This document shows positions 22,456 to 32,945 of a stretch of DNA of 64,000 bases, in pieces (within the stretch, counting starts at the first letter, position 1; every line of letters starts with the position of its first letter). Source of the DNA: Tistrella mobilis KA081020-065 (GTDB lineage: Bacteria; Pseudomonadota; Alphaproteobacteria; Tistrellales; Tistrellaceae); contig NC_017956.1 of NCBI RefSeq assembly GCF_000264455.2, positions 1,657,501 through 1,721,500 on the forward strand, written 5' to 3'. Position numbers and translations under genes: made by a program. The notes under the pieces are model-generated. The model saw only the letters and a program-made list of their open reading frames with translations, had not been told where the DNA came from and ran no database searches.

Positions 22456-22618
22456 GCCAGGGTGGGCGACGGGCGACGTTAACGATGATTGATCCGGTCA
22501 ACGTCAGCGCTTGCAGGCCTGTGCTCGGCAGGGAAGGTTCGGCGGTCGATGGACAGCATTCGCCCGGGGAGCTAGCTTTGGGGCGGGATGCGGGTACGGG
22601 GGTGATGTCGGTCCGACG

Positions 22619-23875
22619 ATGAATGCCAGCGGTATTTTCCGGAAGGCGGCCCTCGACCGTCTGTCTTCCCCCGAACAGCTTGATCAGACACTGACCGTCG
22701 CGAGCCCCCGGGGCTGGGCAGCGGCGCTTGTCGTGGCGGCGGCCATGACCGGGGTCGTGGTCTGGTCGGTGGTGGGGACGATCCCCGTGCGCAAGGCCGG
22801 GCAAGGGTTGCTGATCGCCGAAGGCGGCCGGGTTCTGGATGCCTCGGCGCTGGGGGCCGGGACGCTGTCCGAGCTTCTGGTCGGGCTGGGAGACGAGGTC
22901 ACGGCCGGTGAGCCGGTGGCGCGGATCTCCAACCCGGATCTCGCCCTGCAGCTTGCCAATCTGCGGGCGGTGGTGGCGGAACGCCGCGATGCCCGCACCC
23001 GGCTGGAGCAGGATCTTGCCGAGGAAGCGCGCCTGCGGGAGGCGAGCCTGACCGCCCAGCGCGAGGCGCTGGACACCCGCCTCAATGCCGCGCGCAGCCG
23101 GCTGGCCTATCAGCAGGGGCGTCTTTCGGATCTGGAGGCCCTGTTGGCCCAGAAGGTGGTGACGCGCGATGCGCTCGCCCGGGCCCGCGACGAGGTCGCC
23201 CAGGCCCGCCAGGATCTGGCCGAGATCGAAAGCGGCACCGCCGATCTCCGCTCGCGGAAGATCGAGGCCGAGATCGCAGCCGAGCGCCGCCGCCGCGAGG
23301 CCGACGAGGCGATCGCCGAGGCGGAGCGCCGTGTTGCCGAGCTGGAGGCCCGGGCCGCCCGCGGCGCGGTGGTGACGGCACCCGAGACGGGGCGGGTGAC
23401 CGAGATCAAGCAGCTGCCCGGCGCCCAGCTGAGCGCCGGCCAGGCGGTGCTGGCCCTGCAGACCGGCGGCGAGACGCTGGAAGTGGTGATGTTCGTGCCG
23501 CCGGCCGACGGCAAGGCTATCCGGCCCGGCATGCCGGTGCAGATCAGCCCGTCGACGGCGCCGCGCGAGAGCTTCGGTACGCTGACCGGCGAACTGGTCT
23601 CGGTGTCGGACTTCCCGGTCTCGACCGACGGCATCCGGGCGATCGTCGACAATCCCGGACTTGTCGAGAGCTTCGTTCAGGCGGGCCCGCCCTTCCTGGC
23701 CCGGGTCCGCATCGATCGGGATCCGTCGAGCACCTCGGGCTATCGCTGGACCTCGTCCAAGGGCAGCGATCTTGCGCTTTCGGCCGGTACGCTGGCCTCG
23801 GTCGAGGTCGAGACCGCGACCGAGCGGCCCATCGACATGGTGATCCCGCTGCTCAAGGAGTGGACCGGGCTGTGA
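22619..23875 (+). CDS. NHLP bacteriocin system secretion protein (HlyD-like adaptor)
   Basis: 418 aa from ATG 22619; the upstream extension in frame has no coding look. One membrane helix at about residues 35-56 (WAAALVVAAAMTGVVVWSVVG) is followed by a lipoyl half-motif (GAGTLSELLVGLGDEVTAGEPVARI), a long coiled coil (residues about 105-245, Ala/Arg/Glu-rich), the second lipoyl half (VVTAPETGRVTEIKQLPGAQLSAGQAVLAL) and a beta-barrel. This is the layout of the TIGR03794 adaptor of NHLP systems: the periplasmic bridge between ABC exporter and TolC. The next gene overlaps its stop (GTGA). Confidence 0.88.
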   Translation: MNASGIFRKAALDRLSSPEQLDQTLTVASPRGWAAALVVAAAMTGVVVWSVVGTIPVRKAGQGLLIAEGGRVLDASALGAGTLSELLVGLGDEVTAGEPVARISNPDLALQLANLRAVVAERRDARTRLEQDLAEEARLREASLTAQREALDTRLNAARSRLAYQQGRLSDLEALLAQKVVTRDALARARDEVAQARQDLAEIESGTADLRSRKIEAEIAAERRRREADEAIAEAERRVAELEARAARGAVVTAPETGRVTEIKQLPGAQLSAGQAVLALQTGGETLEVVMFVPPADGKAIRPGMPVQISPSTAPRESFGTLTGELVSVSDFPVSTDGIRAIVDNPGLVESFVQAGPPFLARVRIDRDPSSTSGYRWTSSKGSDLALSAGTLASVEVETATERPIDMVIPLLKEWTGL

Positions 23876-26136
23876 CCGCGCCTGCCGCGGCGCCCGCCGC
23901 CCCTGAAAGCCTGATCAAGCCCAACGCGCCGCAGGGCGGGCGCCGCTTCCGTGTGCCGACCATTCTGCAGATGGAGGCGACCGAATGCGGTGCCGCCTCG
24001 CTTGCGATGATCATGGCCCATCACGGGCTCTGGCTGCCGCTCGAGGTGCTGCGCCGGGAATGTGGCGTGTCGCGCGACGGCTCCAAGGCCGCCAATCTGC
24101 TCAGGGCCGCGCGTCGCTACGGCTTCGAGGCCCGCGGCTACCGGCGCGAGCCCGACAGCGTGGTCAACCTGCCCTTCCCGATGATCGTGTTCTGGAACTT
24201 CAACCATTTCGTGGTTCTGGAAGGGGTGGATGCGAAGCGCGACCGGGTCTGGATCAATGATCCGGCCATGGGGCCGCGGGCGATGACGGTGGAGGAATTC
24301 GACCAGGGCTTCACCGGCGTGTGTCTGGCTTTCCGGCCGACGCCGGAGTTCAAGCGCGGCGGTCGCCCGCCGGGGCTGTTCAAGGCCTTTGCCGAACGGC
24401 TGCGCGGCAGCGGCCCGGCACTCGCCATGGTGCTGATGCTGACCCTGATGCTGGTGCTGCCGGGGCTGGCGCTGCCGGTCTTCTCCAAGCTTTTCGTCGA
24501 CGGCGTGCTGATCGGCGACGAGCAGGACTGGCTGAAACCGCTGCTGATCGGCATCGGGCTGACCGCGATCATCCGGGCCGGGCTCGACTGGGCGCAGATG
24601 CGCTATCTGGCCCGGCTGGAACTGAAGCTGGCGATTTCGGGCTCGGCCAAACTGCTCTGGCATGTTTTCCGGCTGCCGGTCGAATTCTTCCTTCAGCGCT
24701 ATCACGGCGACGTGGCGATGCGGGTCGAATCCGGTGACCGGATCGCCCAGCTGCTGTCGGGCGAATTCGCGACCAATGCGGTCGGGCTGGTGACCATGGT
24801 CTTTTATGCCGTGGTCATGATCGGCTATTCGCCGCTGCTGGGGGCTGTGGGGATCGGCCTCGCCCTGGTCAATGCGGTGGTACTGAAACTGGCCCAGCGT
24901 GCGCGGGAGGATGGCGGCCGGCGTCTTGCCCGCGAACAGGGCGCCCTGGCGGCGACGTCCATGAGCGGCATCCAGCTGCTGGAGACCCTGAAGGCGAGCG
25001 GTGGTGAAAGCGATTTCTTCGCCCGCTGGGCCGGGGTCCATGCCCGATATTTGAACGCCTTGCAGCAGGTCGGCCGGATCACGTCCTGGGTCAATGCGGT
25101 GCCGGCCTTCATGGCGGCACTCACCTCGGCCGTGATCCTGGGCATCGGCGGGCTGGAGGTGATGTCGGGCGCCATCACGGTCGGCGGCCTGGTGGCGGTG
25201 CAGAGCCTGCTCGCCAGCTTTTCGGCGCCGATTGCCGGGCTGATGCAGTTCGGCGGCGAGTTGCATGCGATCAAGGGCCAGGTCGCCCGGATCGACGACG
25301 TGCTGCGTTATGACGTGGACCCCACGCTCGATACCACCGAAAAGGTGATGCGGATCGATGCACCCTCGGGCCGCAGGCTGCCGCAGCGTCTGCGCGGCGA
25401 AGTGCGGATCGAGAACCTGACCTTCGGGTACAACAAGGCCGAAGCGCCGCTGATCGACGATTTCTCCCTGACCATCCGCCCGGGCCAGCGCGTGGCGCTG
25501 GTCGGCGGATCGGGCAGCGGCAAGTCGACAGTGGCGCGTGTGGTCTGCGGGCTCTACCGGCCGTGGAGCGGGCGGGTGCTGTTCGACGGCATTCCCGCCG
25601 AAGACCTGCCCCATGCCTATTTCGCCGGCTCCATCGCCTCGGTCGACCAGGACATCTTCCTGTTCGAAGGCACGGTGCGCGAAAACGTCACCATGTGGGA
25701 CGATACGATCGGCGAGGCCGCCGTCACCCGGGCCCTGCGGGACGCGGCGCTGCTGGACCTGATCGAGGCGCGACCCGGCCGCTACGACTCCCCCGTGGCC
25801 GAGAACGGCGCCAATTTCAGTGGCGGCCAGCGTCAGCGGCTGGAGATCGCCCGTGCGCTGGTCGGCGACCCGGCGGTGCTGATCCTGGACGAGGCGACCA
25901 GTGCGCTCGACACCCAGATCGAGAAGATCATCGACGAGCGCCTGCGCCATCGCGGCTGCACCTGCCTGATCGTCGCCCACCGGCTGTCGACCATCCGCGA
26001 TTGCGACGAGATCATCGTACTGGAACGGGGGCGTATCGCCCAGCGCGGCCGGCATGAGGACATGATCCGCGAGGACGGCCCCTATGCGCGGCTGATCCGG
26101 TCCGAACAGGCCGATGCGGCCAGGGGGCGCGGATGA
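23872..26136 (+). CDS. NHLP-family export ABC transporter, peptidase/permease/ATPase
   Basis: 754 aa from GTG 23872, with AAGGAG upstream and a 4-bp overlap with the adaptor. The N-terminal C39 peptidase is complete: oxyanion Gln33, Cys39 (EATECGAASLAMIMAHHG), His112 (FNHFVVLEG) and Asp130 (INDPAMG). It cleaves leaders after a double glycine. Residues about 180-460 form the six-helix ABC permease. The ATPase carries GGSGSGKST, SGGQRQRLEIARAL and LILDEATSALD. The TIGR03796 type fits the two precursor genes at 31.2-31.9 kb, which both carry GG motifs. Confidence 0.93.
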   Translation: MTAPAAAPAAPESLIKPNAPQGGRRFRVPTILQMEATECGAASLAMIMAHHGLWLPLEVLRRECGVSRDGSKAANLLRAARRYGFEARGYRREPDSVVNLPFPMIVFWNFNHFVVLEGVDAKRDRVWINDPAMGPRAMTVEEFDQGFTGVCLAFRPTPEFKRGGRPPGLFKAFAERLRGSGPALAMVLMLTLMLVLPGLALPVFSKLFVDGVLIGDEQDWLKPLLIGIGLTAIIRAGLDWAQMRYLARLELKLAISGSAKLLWHVFRLPVEFFLQRYHGDVAMRVESGDRIAQLLSGEFATNAVGLVTMVFYAVVMIGYSPLLGAVGIGLALVNAVVLKLAQRAREDGGRRLAREQGALAATSMSGIQLLETLKASGGESDFFARWAGVHARYLNALQQVGRITSWVNAVPAFMAALTSAVILGIGGLEVMSGAITVGGLVAVQSLLASFSAPIAGLMQFGGELHAIKGQVARIDDVLRYDVDPTLDTTEKVMRIDAPSGRRLPQRLRGEVRIENLTFGYNKAEAPLIDDFSLTIRPGQRVALVGGSGSGKSTVARVVCGLYRPWSGRVLFDGIPAEDLPHAYFAGSIASVDQDIFLFEGTVRENVTMWDDTIGEAAVTRALRDAALLDLIEARPGRYDSPVAENGANFSGGQRQRLEIARALVGDPAVLILDEATSALDTQIEKIIDERLRHRGCTCLIVAHRLSTIRDCDEIIVLERGRIAQRGRHEDMIREDGPYARLIRSEQADAARGRG

Positions 26137-29100
26137 CCGCGGCATCCTCCGAAAGCGCCGGTCTGCCGGCGATCGATCCGGAACTCGTCGAGGCCAAGGC
26201 CGAACTGCTGGCCAGGATCGACGGCGTGCGGCGCCAGGTCGGCTATCACAATCCCTTCCTGCTCGACCGCCCCGATCTCATCTGGCTGGTGCTGGAAGGC
26301 GCGGTCGATCTTTATGCCGTGCCGGTGCGTGACGGCGAGGTGATCGGCGTCGGCATTCATGTCGGCCGGGTGCCGGCCGGCGAACTGGTGTTCTCGCCCG
26401 GCCTGGTGCCGTCGGCGGGGGCGCTGGTCGCGGCGGAAGAGGGAGCCGATCTGGCGCTCCGTGCCGTCGCCGTGATGGGCACAGAACTCTTCGAGGCGAA
26501 GCGCGCCGACGTTGCCGAGGGCGATTTCGACCTGATCGTGGTCGACTGGCTGGACCGCTGGATCGGCCATATGGCCGGGCTTGCAGTGCCGGGCGCCGGT
26601 GCCCGCGCGGCCGAGCTGCTGGAAGCCGAGCCGGGCCAGGAGGTGCCGGCCGGCCGGGTGCTGGGGCCGCAGCCCGAAGACGTGATCTGGGTTCAGTGCA
26701 ACAGCGGTCGGGTGCGGCTGATGGGTCTGCCGGAGCTGGAATACGGCCGCAATGACCCGCCGATACCGGTCGCCCGCCATCTCTGGGTCGAGACGGCCGA
26801 GGATGCGATCCTCTCGCCGGCCTATACGCCGACGGTGCTGTTCCGCGACATGGCCTGGGAGGCGCTGGACGCTTTCCACCACATGGTGCTGACGGCCACA
26901 GCCCGGCGGCTCGCCGAGGCGGCCGAGCAGGATGGCGGCCGGCTGGAAACCCGTCGGGATGCCAGCCGGCGCCGGTTCGAGACCTCGCTCGGCCGCATCG
27001 GGCGCCTGCTCGACCGGCACGGGCAGACGGAGACGGCCGGTCTTGCCGAGGGCGCCGGCCCGCTCATTGCCGCGGTCGACCGTGTGGCCCGCGAGACCGG
27101 GATCGACCCGGCCTCGCGCGGCGCGAAGCCACGCGGCAGACGGGTGCTCGACATCGCCCAGAGCCTGAGGCTGCGCTGTCGGCGGGTGACGCTGACCGGC
27201 GACTGGTGGCGCCGCCCGGGCGCGCCCCTCGTCGCCTTCATCGGTGAGACCGGGGTGGGCGAGCGCGGCCGGCCCGTGGCCCTGCTGCCCGCTGCCGATG
27301 GCCGCTGGCGGCTGGTCGATCCCGAGACCGACGGGCCGGCCGGGCCGGGCCGGCCGGTCACCCGTGCCGAGGTCGACAGCCTGAGCGGCGAGGGCTGGAT
27401 GCTCTACCGGCCGTTCCCGGCCAAGCCGATGTCGGTGGGAGAGGTCTGGCGGTTCGGCCTGTACGGCCTGAAAGGCGACGTCCGCACGATCATGACCTGC
27501 GGGCTGCTGGCGGCGCTGACCGGCCTGCTGACCCCGATCGCCAGCGGGGCGCTGTTTTCCAACGTTATTCCGCGGGCCGATCTGCAGACCCATCTCTGGG
27601 TGGTGCTGGCGCTGCTGGCGGGCGCGGTCGGCATCCTGACCTTCGCCGTGGTGCGCGGCATTGCGCTGCTGCGCCTGCAGGCGACCATGGACAGCTCGGT
27701 ACAATCGGCGGTCTGGGACAGGCTGCTTGCCCTGCCGGCGCCGTTCTTCCGCCGGTTCACCGGCGGTGATCTGGCCGATCGCGCCAACAGCGTTTCGGCG
27801 ATCCGGGAATTGCTGACCGGCTCGGCGCTACAGGTGGGGTTGGACGCCCTGTTTTCGCTGGTCAGCCTGGCCCTGCTGTTCTGGTACAGCGCGAAGCTCG
27901 CCCTGGTCGCACTGGGCGTGCTGCTGGTCCAGGTGCTGGTCACCGGCATTCTGCTCAGGATCCAGCTGCCCGATCAGCGGGCGCTGCTCAGCCTGGGCGG
28001 GCGGATCGAGGGGCTGGTCTTCCAGCTGTTGACGGGACTGTCCAAGCTGCGAGTGTCTGCGGCCGAACCGCGCGCCTTCGCCCGCTGGGCCGAAGAATTC
28101 TCGGTGCGCAAGCGGCTGACCTATCGGGTGCGGCTGAATGCGGCGGCGCAGGCGGCGCTGGCGCAGCTGTTCCCCGTGCTGGGCACGCTGGCGGTTTATC
28201 TCTCGGTCGCGACCCTGCTGACCGGGCCGGACGGCCGGCCGGAATTCGGTATCGGCCCGTTCATGGCCTTCACCGCCGCTTTCGGCCAGCTGACCATGGC
28301 GATGACCTCTCTGGTCGCGACGGCCGGCACCGTGCTCGCCATCGTCCCGCTTTACGAACGGGTGACGCCGATCCTGACCGAGATGCCCGAGATCACCCCC
28401 GACCGGGCCCATCCGGGCGAGATCACCGGCCGGATCGAGTTCTCTCACGTCACTTTCGCTTACGCACCCGATGCGCCGCCGGTGCTGGATGATCTGTCGC
28501 TGACGATCGAGTCGGGCGGCTATATCGCCTTCGTCGGCGAAAGCGGCTCGGGCAAGTCGACCCTGCTGCGCCTGCTGCTCGGTTTCGAGCTGCCGCAATC
28601 GGGCGGTGTCTATTTCGACGGCATGGATCAGGCCGGCCTGGACCTGACGGCACTCCGCCGGCAGATCGGCGTGGTGCTGCAGAACGGCCGGCTGATGTCG
28701 GGCAGCATTTTCGACAACATCGTCGGCTCGTGGCCGCTGACCCAGGATGATGCCTGGGCGGCAGCGCGGCTTGCAGGCCTGGACGAGGATATCCGGGCCC
28801 TGCCCATGGGCATGCACACGGTGCTGTCGGAAGGTGGCGGCACACTCTCGGGCGGGCAGCGCCAGCGGCTGATGATCGCCCGGGCCCTGGTCCACCGGCC
28901 ACGCATCCTGGTGCTGGACGAGGCGACAAGCGCGCTCGACAACCGCACCCAGGCGATCGTCAATGACAGCATTTCGAAGCTGAACATGACCCGGATCGTG
29001 GTCGCGCATCGCCTGTCGACCATTCAGGACGCCCATCAGATCTATGTCATGAAATCCGGCCGGCTGGTGGAGCAGGGCGACTATCGCAGCCTGATGGCGC

Positions 29101-29144
29101 TCGATGGCGAATTCGCGGCCCTGGCCCGGCGCCAGCTGCTGTAG
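26133..29144 (+). CDS. NHLP-family export ABC transporter, permease/ATPase (large partner)
   Basis: 1003 aa, overlapping the preceding gene by 4 bp (ATGA). The C-terminal half is an ABC exporter: membrane helices from about residue 450 (TIMTCGLLAALTGLLTPIASG) and an ATPase with GESGSGKST, SGGQRQRLMIARAL and LVLDEATSALD. There is no C39 peptidase. The first 400 or so residues are a family-specific cytoplasmic region; residues about 35-125 look like a beta-roll (LIWLVLEGAVDLYAVPV, GELVFSPGLV), reminiscent of cyclic-nucleotide-binding or cupin folds. This matches TIGR03797, the usual second subunit; the two ABC proteins probably form a heterodimer. Confidence 0.92.
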   Translation: MTAASSESAGLPAIDPELVEAKAELLARIDGVRRQVGYHNPFLLDRPDLIWLVLEGAVDLYAVPVRDGEVIGVGIHVGRVPAGELVFSPGLVPSAGALVAAEEGADLALRAVAVMGTELFEAKRADVAEGDFDLIVVDWLDRWIGHMAGLAVPGAGARAAELLEAEPGQEVPAGRVLGPQPEDVIWVQCNSGRVRLMGLPELEYGRNDPPIPVARHLWVETAEDAILSPAYTPTVLFRDMAWEALDAFHHMVLTATARRLAEAAEQDGGRLETRRDASRRRFETSLGRIGRLLDRHGQTETAGLAEGAGPLIAAVDRVARETGIDPASRGAKPRGRRVLDIAQSLRLRCRRVTLTGDWWRRPGAPLVAFIGETGVGERGRPVALLPAADGRWRLVDPETDGPAGPGRPVTRAEVDSLSGEGWMLYRPFPAKPMSVGEVWRFGLYGLKGDVRTIMTCGLLAALTGLLTPIASGALFSNVIPRADLQTHLWVVLALLAGAVGILTFAVVRGIALLRLQATMDSSVQSAVWDRLLALPAPFFRRFTGGDLADRANSVSAIRELLTGSALQVGLDALFSLVSLALLFWYSAKLALVALGVLLVQVLVTGILLRIQLPDQRALLSLGGRIEGLVFQLLTGLSKLRVSAAEPRAFARWAEEFSVRKRLTYRVRLNAAAQAALAQLFPVLGTLAVYLSVATLLTGPDGRPEFGIGPFMAFTAAFGQLTMAMTSLVATAGTVLAIVPLYERVTPILTEMPEITPDRAHPGEITGRIEFSHVTFAYAPDAPPVLDDLSLTIESGGYIAFVGESGSGKSTLLRLLLGFELPQSGGVYFDGMDQAGLDLTALRRQIGVVLQNGRLMSGSIFDNIVGSWPLTQDDAWAAARLAGLDEDIRALPMGMHTVLSEGGGTLSGGQRQRLMIARALVHRPRILVLDEATSALDNRTQAIVNDSISKLNMTRIVVAHRLSTIQDAHQIYVMKSGRLVEQGDYRSLMALDGEFAALARRQLL

Positions 29145-29168: not shown

Positions 29169-29822
29169 TCAATCCGCCGTCGGCAGACCGGCATCGGTTG
29201 CGGCGGCGCTCTCGATCATGCCGCGCAGGCTGCCGGTGTTGGCGAAATCCCAGCGGCCGTCATAGACGACGTCATCGATCCGCCAGCCGTCATCGCCGCG
29301 CAGGATCGACAGGCGATCGGTCCAGCTGGTCATCAGCGTGCCGGCCTCGTAGGCATAGCGCAGCTCGACCGAGGCGGTGTTGCGTGCCAGAGTCACGGCG
29401 CCGACGCGGCAGCTCGTGGCACCCTCGAACAGGCTGGAGAACAGATCGCCATCGGCAAAGGGCGGTTTGTCGCCAGGGGCGTGGCGGATGGCGGCATCGT
29501 GAAGATGCCGGGCGGCGGTGAGGGCACCATCCAGGCCGAGGGTGATCAAAGGTTCAAGGGCATGCTGTGCAGCGGGGGGCGGCAGGCCGCCGCCGCGGAG
29601 GTCCGGATAGACGGCACAGAAGGCCTCGGCGAGCTGTGAGACCTCGACGCCGTCCTCGGCGGCTGCCGCACGTGCGGCGCTTGCCTGGGCATCGAGCGTG
29701 GAGCCGTAGACCTCTTCTTCGGCGAGGGCAACATGTGGCAGGACATTGCAGATCAGCATCGCCAGAAGCCACGCCGATGCCGTCTCTATTCCCCGGTGAC
29801 CGGGTTTACGAACACGCGCCAT
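29169..29822 (-). CDS. Secreted protein of unknown function in the NHLP locus
   Basis: 217 aa. A signal peptide is likely (basic N-terminus, hydrophobic ASAWLLAMLICNVLPHVALA, cleavage after ALA near residue 34). The mature part holds two cysteines (AFCAVYP and TSCRVGAV) and ends with WTDRLSILRGDDGWRIDDVVYDGRWDFANTGSLRGMIESA, which resembles NTF2-like/DUF3828 periplasmic proteins; this assignment is tentative. The start overlaps the end of tolC by 37 bp, so it is in the precursor-tolC operon. It could assist passage or immunity, but nothing proves it. Confidence 0.6.
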   Translation of the reverse strand: MARVRKPGHRGIETASAWLLAMLICNVLPHVALAEEEVYGSTLDAQASAARAAAAEDGVEVSQLAEAFCAVYPDLRGGGLPPPAAQHALEPLITLGLDGALTAARHLHDAAIRHAPGDKPPFADGDLFSSLFEGATSCRVGAVTLARNTASVELRYAYEAGTLMTSWTDRLSILRGDDGWRIDDVVYDGRWDFANTGSLRGMIESAAATDAGLPTAD

Positions 29823-31180
29823 TTGACCGCCTCATAGTCGCCAGTCGGATCATGATACGGCACATCGAGCGCGAGTGCGCGCGCTTCCAGCCCACCGGTC
29901 GCCGCCAGCACCCCGAAGGCTGCCACGACCACGTCGCGGCGCGCTCCGGCAAGCGCCTCGCTCGCATCGAGCAGGTCGCGTTGGGCATCGAGCAGGTCGA
30001 TCAGCGGCCGCCGGCCCAGATCGACTTCGCGCGCGACGCCGTCGAGTGCGGTGGTCGCCGCCTCGACCTGCGCCTCGCGCGCGGCGATGGCCGCACGGGC
30101 CGCCAGCATGTCGCGCCAGACCCGCTCGGTCCGCTCCACGATGCTGCGTTCGGTGGCTAAGCGGGAGAGACGGGCTTCGGCGGCGGTCTTGCGGGCCTCG
30201 CGCAGCCGGCTCTCGGCAATGCCGGCACTGTAGATCGGCACCGTCAGCTGCAGGCCGACCGCCGCGGCTTCGGTCTCCCGTGGATTGACATCAAGGCTGG
30301 AGCGATTGCGGCTGAGGCTTCCGGTGACGGAGACCTTGGGCAGCAGGGCGCCGCGGCTGACCGCAATCCCGTCCGTCGCCGCCTCGGTATCATAGCCTGC
30401 GGCCACGATCTGGGGATTGGCTTCCCTGGCACGGAGCAGGGCGGCGCCCAGAGTGTCGGGCAGATGGGCGGGTAAGGGCGCTGGCGCTGGGGCCGTCGGC
30501 TCCTGGCCGGTCACCGCGAGATAGGTGGCCTGCGATTTGGCCAGGGCGGCTTCGGCGGCGACCACACGCGCCTCGGCATCGGCCACGCGCGCACGGGCCT
30601 GGGCAAGATCCGCGGCCGTGGCATCGCCCAGATCGTGGAGGGCGCGGGTCTGATCCAGCCGTCGCACCAACAGGTCGCGGGCCTGGCGGTTCAGGTTCAG
30701 AACGTCCAGGTCCCGCGCGACATCCACATGGGCGGTGACCGCGGCGAGCAGCACCTCGCTCTCGGTGGTCCTGAGGCGGGCCCGCTCGGCCCTGATGGTA
30801 TTCTCGGCCCGGTCGAGCCCGGCGGAGGCGGCGCCGCCGCTATAGACCGGCTGGTTCAGGGTCAGCGCCTGCTGGTCCTGGCGATTGGTGCGGTTGACCA
30901 CGCCGTCATAGGTCAGGTCCTGTACGTCGCGGCTGGCCGAGGCCGACAGGCTGGGCAGGAAACCGCCGAGCGCCTGCGGGCGCTGCTCGTTGACGACGTC
31001 GAGCCGTGCCCGCCCGACCGCCAGATCCGGATTGGCGAGATAGGCGGCGGCCAGGGTCTCTGACAGGGTTTGTGCGCCGGCCGGTGCGATCACCGCCGTG
31101 GTCGCCGCGATGATGGCGGCGAGACGCCAGGCATAGGGTGGCCGGACTGGCCGGTGCCGGACCGGGGACCCGGCACTCAT
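29786..31180 (-). CDS. TolC-family outer membrane efflux protein of the NHLP system
   Basis: 464 aa, usual length. A signal peptide is clear (RLAAIIAATTAVIAPAGAQ). Two outer membrane efflux protein repeats follow: TLSETLAAAYLANPDLAVGRARLDVVNEQRPQALGGFLPSLS and LGAALLRAREANPQIVAAGYDTEAATDGIAVSRGALLPKVSV, each with its long helices. It forms the trimeric outer membrane channel for export. Its start overlaps the stop of the second precursor gene (ATGA), tying it to these peptides rather than to general efflux. Confidence 0.92.
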   Translation of the reverse strand: MSAGSPVRHRPVRPPYAWRLAAIIAATTAVIAPAGAQTLSETLAAAYLANPDLAVGRARLDVVNEQRPQALGGFLPSLSASASRDVQDLTYDGVVNRTNRQDQQALTLNQPVYSGGAASAGLDRAENTIRAERARLRTTESEVLLAAVTAHVDVARDLDVLNLNRQARDLLVRRLDQTRALHDLGDATAADLAQARARVADAEARVVAAEAALAKSQATYLAVTGQEPTAPAPAPLPAHLPDTLGAALLRAREANPQIVAAGYDTEAATDGIAVSRGALLPKVSVTGSLSRNRSSLDVNPRETEAAAVGLQLTVPIYSAGIAESRLREARKTAAEARLSRLATERSIVERTERVWRDMLAARAAIAAREAQVEAATTALDGVAREVDLGRRPLIDLLDAQRDLLDASEALAGARRDVVVAAFGVLAATGGLEARALALDVPYHDPTGDYEAVKWRVFVNPVTGE

Positions 31181-31485: not shown

Positions 31486-31857
31486 TCACCTTCCGCCCAG
31501 AGTGAATGTCACGCCGCCGGAGCCGAAAACCAACAGCATGTCATCTCCACCAGGTGGAACAACCGGACCACCGACGCCGCCGGCGACGGCATCGAGGGCA
31601 TCATCCGCCAGATCGCCGCCATCGGTATCCTGGGCGACCGGCGGAATGACCAGATGCACGCGATCTGGCGTGTTTTCGACCACGACGAGGCTGACATCGG
31701 CCGGCAGGTCGATGCCATGGGCCGCCAGGGCCTGACGCGGATCCGTCCTGCACAGGGCGCGGAACTCCGCATCCCGCCAGGCATGGTCGATGATATCGCC
31801 AATGCGCTTGCGCAATTCGTCCGTCACCTGATCGTGAGAGGCTGTGCCCTTGTCCAT
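31486..31857 (-). CDS. NHLP leader peptide family RiPP precursor (first precursor)
   Basis: 123 aa from ATG 31857. The same frame is open to 32076 but that extension shows no family similarity. The leader has the NHLP form: HAWRDAEFRALCRTDPRQAL, AAHGIDLPADV and VVVENTPDRVHLVIPP; the VVENTP-VH segment recalls nitrile hydratase alpha just before its metal loop, which is absent. A cleavage site DALDAVAGG ends at residue 94. The predicted core, residues 95-123, is glycine-rich (9 Gly of 29) with hydrophobic MLLVF, and lacks Cys. It is first in the minus-strand operon. Confidence 0.88.
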   Translation of the reverse strand: MDKGTASHDQVTDELRKRIGDIIDHAWRDAEFRALCRTDPRQALAAHGIDLPADVSLVVVENTPDRVHLVIPPVAQDTDGGDLADDALDAVAGGVGGPVVPPGGDDMLLVFGSGGVTFTLGGR

Positions 31858-32213
31858 GTTCCCGCCGCGATGGGCCCTTTGTTGCGGGGCCCGCACGCGC
31901 CCGCTTTCGCATTCAACGCTATGATCGACCTGTTTGGTAAATCCCACCACTGCCTGGGTCAATGGCCGTTTATGCGACATGCAAGATATCATGCGCATTG
32001 AGGTACGATGCCACGTCGTCTGTGGCCGTAAGGTCGCGCCTGTCGCGTGAAGCGTGTCGTCCTTCAGGTCGTTCATGGTGATCCGATCCGCCTGACGTCC
32101 TTTTCAGGATGCAAGCTTCGGCGCCCCGGTATATAAGGCGAGATAACAAGCAGTCCAAGGGTAGAGGCTGGCGGAGGACTATCCGCCGTGCGGGATGGAT
32201 CGGGGGCAGAGGC
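31858..32213. other. Divergent control region between NHLP precursors and the regulator
   Basis: 356 bp without a convincing gene, and less GC-rich than its surroundings. It contains a candidate minus-strand promoter (31934-31962), an AT-rich TATATAA stretch near 32140 in the plus direction, and a small hairpin (ggcgga/tccgcc near 32169-32186) ahead of the regulator start. No third NHLP-like precursor was found in it. Confidence 0.5.
31934..31962 (-). promoter_or_regulatory. Candidate sigma70-type promoter for the NHLP precursor operon
   Basis: On the minus strand, TTGACC (31957-31962) and TACCAA (31934-31939) are separated by 17 bp. The -35 is close to consensus and the -10 is weak. It would give a leader of about 70 nt before the first precursor. 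Confidence 0.35.
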
Positions 32214-32945
32214 GTGACTCTGCGGCATAACGGGGCGGCACTTCCGTCTGAACCTAGAGATCGCGTTGCCGTGCTGTCGGAAGACATCGGCGAAGCGCGT
32301 CGAATTGCCGACTATCTTAAAACTGCAGGATTAATATCTGTAGCTTTGATCGCCAATCGCGCAAGTTGCGATCAGCTTGCCGAACGGCCGGTGGATCTTG
32401 TCGTGCTGGACTGCGATGGTCGCACCGTTGACGGTCTGGCACTCGGCCGGCGCATTCTAGCGCAGGGTCAGCCCGGTCTGGTGTTCGTCAGCAAGCGTGA
32501 CGACGAGGTGGAACGGGTGATCGGCCTCGATATGGGTGCCGACGATTTCCTGGTCCGCCCTTTCAGCCTGCGGGAACTGACCGCCCGGGTTCGCTCGGTC
32601 CTGAGGCGTCGGCGCATGATGCCCGAGACGATCGGCGCAGACATCCGCCATGTCCGTGGCTGGACCATCGACCTCACCCGCCGTGAGATCGCCGATCCGG
32701 ATGGCGAGGTCGTGCGGCTGACCCGCGGCGAATTCGACCTGCTGGCCGCCATCGTCCAGGCGGGCGGTCGGCCGGTGACCCGGGAATATCTGTTGGAAGT
32801 GGTGTCGAAGCGGGCGGATGCGGTCTCCGACCGCACGGTCGTGACCCTGATCAGCCGCCTGCGCCGCAAGCTGGACCGTGGCGCCGGGGATCTGGACCTG
32901 ATCCGCACCGAGCCGGGTGTCGGCTACCGGATCACCGCCGACTGA
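32214..32945 (+). CDS. OmpR/PhoB-family response regulator with an atypical receiver
   Basis: 243 aa from GTG 32214; an ATG at 32109 would add 35 basic residues not typical of the family. The receiver has acidic residues Glu23/Asp24, phospho-acceptor Asp66 (VVLDCDG) and Ser93, but the conserved Lys is replaced by Arg115 (DDFLVRPFSL). The C-terminal winged helix is complete (VRLTRGEFDLLAAIVQAGGRPVTREYLLEVV ... VGYRI). No histidine kinase is adjacent. It is divergent from the precursor operon and is its probable regulator. Confidence 0.88.
   Translation: MTLRHNGAALPSEPRDRVAVLSEDIGEARRIADYLKTAGLISVALIANRASCDQLAERPVDLVVLDCDGRTVDGLALGRRILAQGQPGLVFVSKRDDEVERVIGLDMGADDFLVRPFSLRELTARVRSVLRRRRMMPETIGADIRHVRGWTIDLTRREIADPDGEVVRLTRGEFDLLAAIVQAGGRPVTREYLLEVVSKRADAVSDRTVVTLISRLRRKLDRGAGDLDLIRTEPGVGYRITAD

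Follow-up and report, generated by a model that had tools for sequence, protein, structure and literature searches.

A glycine-rich, cysteine-free NHLP precursor beside a complete NHLM exporter in Tistrella mobilis: a candidate for export without modification

In the 64,000-nt stretch of the Tistrella mobilis KA081020-065 genome analysed here (the window), we identified P1, a precursor of the NHLP family that has a glycine-rich, cysteine-free core and is encoded beside a complete NHLM exporter. We propose that the P1 leader directs recognition by the C39 peptidase of this exporter, that P1 is cut after Gly94 and that a linear 29-mer, unmodified or nearly so, is exported, a reading to which we give a probability of about 0.55. 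It starts from the following observations: P1 has a leader of the NHLP family with the matching site motif, its gene row adjoins an exporter that is complete, three genomes encode a similar core, and no known maturase was found nearby.

A cysteine-free core behind an NHLP leader

Profile search placed P1 in the NHLP leader family, with a TIGR03793 score of 63.3 bits against a curated cut-off of 50.9, and Pfam gave PF02979 at 29.4 bits (cut-off 27.2). The TIGR03793 match covers positions 7–77 of 77 and ends at residue 94, the last residue of the VAGG motif (V91-A92-G93-G94). The cleavage region, with L-12, L-7 (L83 and L88), V-4 and GG, agrees with the family consensus. The sole Cys of P1 is C36, and therefore the multi-Cys metal site of nitrile hydratase, as described in PMC2887384 (excerpts), is absent.

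An AlphaFold2 model built from 27 sequences (mean pLDDT 67.1) placed helices and one strand inside residues 8–61. Throughout the core the block means of pLDDT were 41–44, with values below 50 except at residues 117–119. In a Foldseek search with this model, no PDB match reached E 0.001; the two best were proteusin precursors, 8tb1 (E 3.9e-3, 41% identity) and 9cjx (E 4.9e-2). Proteusin leaders consist of a rigid part and a disordered part with LxxxxL at -12 to -7 (PMC10858898, excerpts). Judged by its sequence, P1 is a genuine NHLP precursor of the proteusin type.

The core, VGGPVVPPGGDDMLLVFGSGGVTFTLGGR, has 29 residues, among them nine Gly, three Pro, one Ser and two Thr (S113, T117 and T119), and contains MLLVF. 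The initial annotation had described it in exactly these terms, and translation bore out each detail. It had also argued that lanthionines, sactionines and Cys-derived thiazoles are impossible here, which holds because the core has no Cys. Thus, the wealth of modifiable residues expected in the core of a proteusin/NHLP RiPP is lacking (0 Cys, 3/29 Ser/Thr). In Gly content the core ranked sixth of 73 cores of at least 15 aa, and a paralogue in the same genome (locus L038) ranked higher. The features of the locus are collected in Table 1.

Table 1. Features of the P1 locus (window coordinates)
Feature	Coordinates	Strand	Basis
P1 (P0002), NHLP-leader peptide precursor, 123 aa	31486..31857	-	TIGR03793, PF02979
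P1 leader, residues 1-94, C-terminal end LADDALDAVAGG	31576..31857	-	translation, site motif, AlphaFold2 model
P1 core, residues 95-123, Gly-rich, Cys-free	31489..31575	-	translation, pLDDT, genus comparison
P2 (P0003), NHLP-like protein with degenerate cleavage motif, 100 aa	31177..31479	-	TIGR03793 41 bits, below cut-off
TolC family outer membrane protein	29786..31180	-	TIGR01844 257 bits, over cut-off
P0010, YbjP-like, signal-peptide-like start (by eye)	29169..29822	-	NF007824, PDB sequence matches
NHLM HlyD-type secretion protein	22511..23875	+	TIGR03794 275.6 bits, over cut-off
NHLM peptidase/permease/ATPase with C39 peptidase	23860..26136	+	TIGR03796 1041.6 bits, over cut-off; PF03412 120.2 bits
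NHLM second ABC permease/ATPase	26133..29144	+	TIGR03797 843.2 bits, over cut-off
OmpR-type response regulator, divergent from P1	32109..32945	+	PF00072, PF00486

Gene row and exporter

P1 heads a row of four genes (P1, P2, tolC and P0010), in which P1 and P2 are 6 bp apart, P2 and tolC overlap by 4 bp, and tolC and P0010 overlap by 37 bp; this spacing is identical in three genomes of the genus. Convergent to the row lies a complete three-gene NHLM exporter (22511-29144), which gives P1 the exporter linkage of the NHLP family. The HlyD-type protein probably starts 3′ of the annotated TTG, because the TIGR03794 match begins at residue 50. The NHLM peptidase carries the C39 motifs QMEATECG, NHFVV and INDP and so provides the dedicated C39 exporter expected of a class II microcin.

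The last gene of the row, P0010, resembles YbjP weakly: NF007824 scored 28.4 bits (E 1.4e-6), far under its cut-off of 200, and the three best PDB sequence matches were all YbjP (E 0.08–0.14). YbjP is the TolC lipoprotein partner of E. coli, and the immunity protein Tai3 has the same domain (PMC13082787, excerpts). Given this resemblance, P0010, whose gene lies directly 3′ of tolC, could be a TolC partner or an immunity protein; no gene was recognised as a dedicated immunity gene for P1. Unlike YbjP, P0010 showed no clear lipobox by eye and no Pfam family below E 0.001, and neither of two weak matches up to E 1 was DUF3828. Its relatives, found in 7/385 genomes of the class (three of the seven from its own genus), also lie away from TolC: in all four of the other genomes, the 14–17 kb stretches around them had no TolC, NHLP or exporter match. 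A single-sequence model of P0010 (mean pLDDT 40.9) was too poor for a fold search and was set aside.

On one side the cluster is flanked by ScpA/ScpB and on the other by a set of alpha-E, ATP-grasp, transglutaminase and proteasome-like genes. The NHLM cluster as a whole (22455-49114) sits between scpB and the tatC/serS genes. As scpB and tatC/serS adjoin each other in many alphaproteobacteria, this region may be a variable insertion. Receivers usually carry Lys before Pro at a conserved place, where the response regulator at 32109-32945 has LVRPF; it is possibly an atypical receiver.

Conservation of P1

The initial annotation had made its reading of the core depend on conservation among orthologues, and within the genus the core is indeed conserved. 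Compared with its counterparts in the two other genomes, P1 has identities of 97% and 95% overall and of 26/29 (P101A, G103V and G114D) and 27/29 (P101A and R123G) in the core, so that residues 104–113 and 115–122 are invariant in all three. The leader differs at 1/94 and 5/94 positions. For the three pairs of genomes, the non-synonymous/synonymous ratios of the core were 0.60, 0.28 and 0.24 (Fisher P = 0.62, 0.14 and 0.04), which, in this small sample of three genomes, weakly suggests purifying selection.

No P1-like core was found outside the genus in the loci read or in the searches made, which covered samples or the matches listed. An NHLP match over cut-off was present in 15/385 genomes of the class, three of them of the same genus, and the loci of the other twelve were read; a genome_contigs search with one pattern led to the reading of 34 loci among the matches listed. 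P1 itself matched 2/398 genomes in a phylum sample, one being the window's own, and a plasmid collection returned one Paenibacillus leader match covering 46% of the query. Among the matches listed from open-licence PMC papers, no title concerned the NHLPs of this genus.

Maturases in the window and the genome

No RiPP maturase (YcaO, LanC/LanM, radical SAM or other recognised type) was present among 38 window proteins scanned with Pfam, a scan that listed part of them at E 1e-6 or better and left 25 of the 59 called ORFs, some up to 410 aa, outside. Queries with a LanM, two YcaO and one SPASM sequence against 470 window ORFs of at least 40 aa returned no match at E 1e-3, and CxxxCxxC is absent from every window ORF longer than 250 aa. 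Therefore, the nearby maturase typical of a proteusin/NHLP RiPP was not found in the window by Pfam or by these LanM, YcaO and SPASM queries.

In the genome (6.5 Mb, five contigs), the NHLP profile matched 15 times at E 0.001, and five of these matches exceed the cut-off. The 15 include the P1/P2 pair, four on contig C3 (L038), two on contig C2 (L045), one at C1:2016644 (L041) and matches in longer frames. Two of the longer frames (L044 and L047) contain C-T/S-LCSCYPW, a stretch like that of nitrile hydratase alpha subunits. Genome-wide, there is one YcaO and one LANC-domain protein, a LanM. A radical SAM search with SPASM and rSAM_ocin_1 gave a single SPASM match, the GDL-peptide maturase TIGR03913, and four rSAM_ocin_1 matches, none over cut-off. 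A second NHLM-like exporter (L059) lies ~62 kb before that of the window, with its peptidase at 850.6 bits (cut-off 853.3), HlyD over and the second ABC protein under cut-off; the 40 kb read in and next to this exporter yielded no NHLP precursor.

With a LanM in the genome, P1 might be modified in trans, this or another enzyme altering Ser/Thr or the backbone of the core before export. We consider this unlikely. The idea draws on other NHLP and Nif11 systems, in which one enzyme serves several distant precursors, and on Haft et al. (PMC2887384, excerpts), who report NHLP precursors encoded far from their enzymes and assume that NHLPs of the non-TOMM kind remain dehydrated if they lack Cys. P1 also retains L-12 and L-7, the LxxxxL that is bound by a brominase in a proteusin leader (PMC10858898, excerpts). 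Since precursors can lie far from their maturases, a trans-acting LanM could dehydrate S113, T117 or T119. However, the core offers only these 3 of 29 residues, and the LanM and the YcaO each have another small ORF nearby. The one ~0.1 kb behind the LanM has a Cys-rich tail, and its leader is of another kind, with a weak resemblance to Nif11 (17.5 bits, below cut-off). The other, likewise with a Cys-rich tail, lies ~1.2 kb before the YcaO ORF. These two are the presumed substrates of the LanM and the YcaO. No NHLP precursor was found in either stretch, and the Nif11 leader profile had no match in the genome at E 0.001. An enzyme of a type outside the classes searched could also act on the core. 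Nevertheless, we favour the reading in which the P1 core is probably exported unmodified.

Cysteine-free cores among NHLPs

The initial annotation had presented the lack of Cys as setting P1 apart from other NHLPs, which the loci read contradict: 62/97 distinct cores are Cys-free, 24/25 in the three genomes of the genus and 38/72 outside it. The loci sampled were relatives of P1, which biases these counts; differing orthologues were counted separately, the site rule was our own (GG first), some ORF ends are uncertain and 30 ORFs lacking a canonical end were left out. Outside the genus, twelve loci have only Cys-free cores. Five of these (L107, L117, L130, L131 and L135) have a maturase match and seven (L092, L104, L105, L110, L120, L134 and L139) have none. 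For instance, L110 (Curvibacter) encodes eight Cys-free NHLP precursors in a row, and the seven neighbours scanned are all ordinary genes with no maturase among them. Used as a query, the YcaO of L108 scored >300 bits in L095, L096, L098, L099, L102, L107, L108 and L114, and 38.9 bits in L127. NHLPs without known maturases were already noted in 2010 (PMC2887384, excerpts); therefore the general situation is known and P1 is a new instance. Among NHLPs, the P1 core is not exceptional in its composition or in being Cys-free.

The loci read also showed several other arrangements. In L104, a CmcJ/NvfI-type oxidoreductase is encoded nearby. In L093–L095, L098 and L099, NHLP cores end in CCCW (with YcaO in L095, L098 and L099) and accompany a gene of 432–499 aa that starts with an NHLP-like domain; two of these genes, when scanned, had a squalene-hopene-cyclase-like C-terminal part under the family cut-off. 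Eleven NHLP precursors at L092:8334-13893 have short cores all ending in Trp, seven of them in NW. Among several NHLP precursors with nearly Cys-free cores, a 530-aa ORF at L138:10900-12492 comprises the LanM dehydratase part (DUF4135) without the LanC part.

Aggregation and membrane activity of the core

The P1 core had initially been likened to an amyloid- or membrane-active segment, an idea that we now consider improbable. In its favour, the core contains MLLVFG and GVTFTL, both short, hydrophobic and beta-prone and both kept in the three genomes except for G114, which precedes the second, and AlphaFold2 places low-confidence strands at 107–109 and 116–122. Against this, an equal or larger aggregation hot spot arose in 1015/2000 shuffles of the core, which ranked 26 of 73 cores, and amyloid-like character is thus unsupported. 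The same applies to a membrane-active helix: the best helical moment is 0.30, compared with 0.39–0.52 in four cores of the C2 cluster, and the net charge is -1. Made with AGGRESCAN, Kyte-Doolittle and Eisenberg scales, both comparisons are a crude test of aggregation and membrane character. By these measures, the four C2-cluster cores are the better membrane-active candidates of the genus. NHLP precursors on another contig (L045 and L048) have hydrophobic, Gly-rich tails, e.g. VGLFGSLLSTLMPVMGSVVGKLFGSR, with the look of class II bacteriocins.

A paralogue with a degenerate cleavage motif

The neighbour of P1, P2, is the less expected and more unusual point of the locus. Its TIGR03793 match stops at 61 of 77, and its site residues are Y-12, Q-7, D-4 and GG, where the family has L at 88/108, L at 98/108 and V at 87/108 sites, respectively. 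Between genomes G000 and G002, the 22-residue tail behind this site, DVVTVGDAAFAAGLFPRTDGSR, shows five synonymous changes and an identical amino-acid sequence, compared with eight changed residues in the rest of P2 (Fisher P = 0.001 for the tail). Relative to G001, one residue of the tail differs (G98S). These substitution patterns indicate that the P2 tail is under purifying selection, more clearly than the P1 core. Paralogues lacking GG altogether are likewise encoded in the C3-type clusters of the three genomes (L038, L039 and L040) and next to a TOMM-type NHLP in L108.

Os1348 of Pseudomonas sp. Os17 is a small protein of the NHLP clan without which the strain shows less antibiotic activity (PMC7726476, excerpts). 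Like Os1348, P2 is an NHLP-clan protein of 85–100 aa without a good leader motif; unlike at the P1 locus, where none was recognised, the excerpts place putative modification genes in the Os1348 cluster, and P2 scored 24.9 bits with the Os1348 model NF038399, below its cut-off of 40 bits.

P1 and P2 might form a pair, with P2 as an uncut NHLP-like partner that binds P1 or the exporter and serves as escort, inhibitor or immunity-like protein. This suggestion is tentative, and we doubt that it is correct. The 6-bp distance kept in three genomes and the occurrence of GG-less paralogues at the four other loci fit it, as does the combination in P2 of atypical residues at -12, -7 and -4 with a tail that is unchanged relative to G002. 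However, P2 retains GG, which the C39 peptidase could potentially use if the unusual motif is tolerated, the tail does differ from G001 at G98S, and the GG-less copies could be duplicates retained for other reasons. A motif that is broken while the protein remains under selection raises the question of what purpose an uncleaved leader domain serves.

Discussion

Class II microcins and bacteriocins of the microcin V type have a double-glycine leader of ~15–30 aa and a C39 peptidase-ABC exporter with HlyD and TolC. We propose, by analogy, that the NHLP leader and exporter are used at the P1 locus as these systems use theirs. The folded, nitrile-hydratase-derived leader, together with L-12, L-7, V-4 and GG, would be recognised by the C39 peptidase of the adjoining NHLM transporter, which would cut P1 after Gly94. 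The 29-residue core would then pass out through HlyD and the co-encoded TolC as a linear peptide, unmodified or nearly so. Besides cleavage, export and absence of modification, we infer a bacteriocin-like or signalling role for the product. P1 resembles the class II microcins in its C39 exporter, HlyD, TolC and apparently unmodified short product, and differs from them in having a partly folded leader of 94 residues rather than a short one and no recognised immunity gene.

With the NHLP/proteusins (TIGR03793; PMC2887384 and PMC10858898, excerpts), P1 shares the nitrile-hydratase-like leader, the GG motif and LxxxxL at -12/-7, and the locus shares an adjacent three-gene NHLM exporter and several precursors per genome. 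Unlike proteusins, P1 has a core without Cys and with few Ser/Thr, no maturase found in the window and a paralogue with a broken motif next door. The NHLP-type T1SS LB2SS/LB3SS of Legionella are likewise considered in the excerpts of PMC6959600 to have an NHLP-type C39 exporter that carries bacteriocins; there the systems are treated as transporters, whereas we consider the P1 locus by its precursors and cores.

Cys is missing from other NHLP cores of the genus as well, and some of these NHLPs (L045 and L048) have tails that look bacteriocin-like. It is conceivable, if rather unlikely in our view, that in this genus the NHLP leader and NHLM exporter have become a general route for secreting unmodified, Cys-free peptides, and that uncleavable paralogues, P2 among them, are retained as conserved protein partners to gate, escort or neutralise the cleavable ones.

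An NHLP leader is normally taken as a sign that the product is a modified natural product. If our reading of P1 is correct, a conserved, exporter-linked, Cys-free NHLP with no known maturase within reach would imply that such a leader can serve plain cut-and-export secretion, and tools that label clusters of this kind as encoding modified peptides would be wrong for those clusters.
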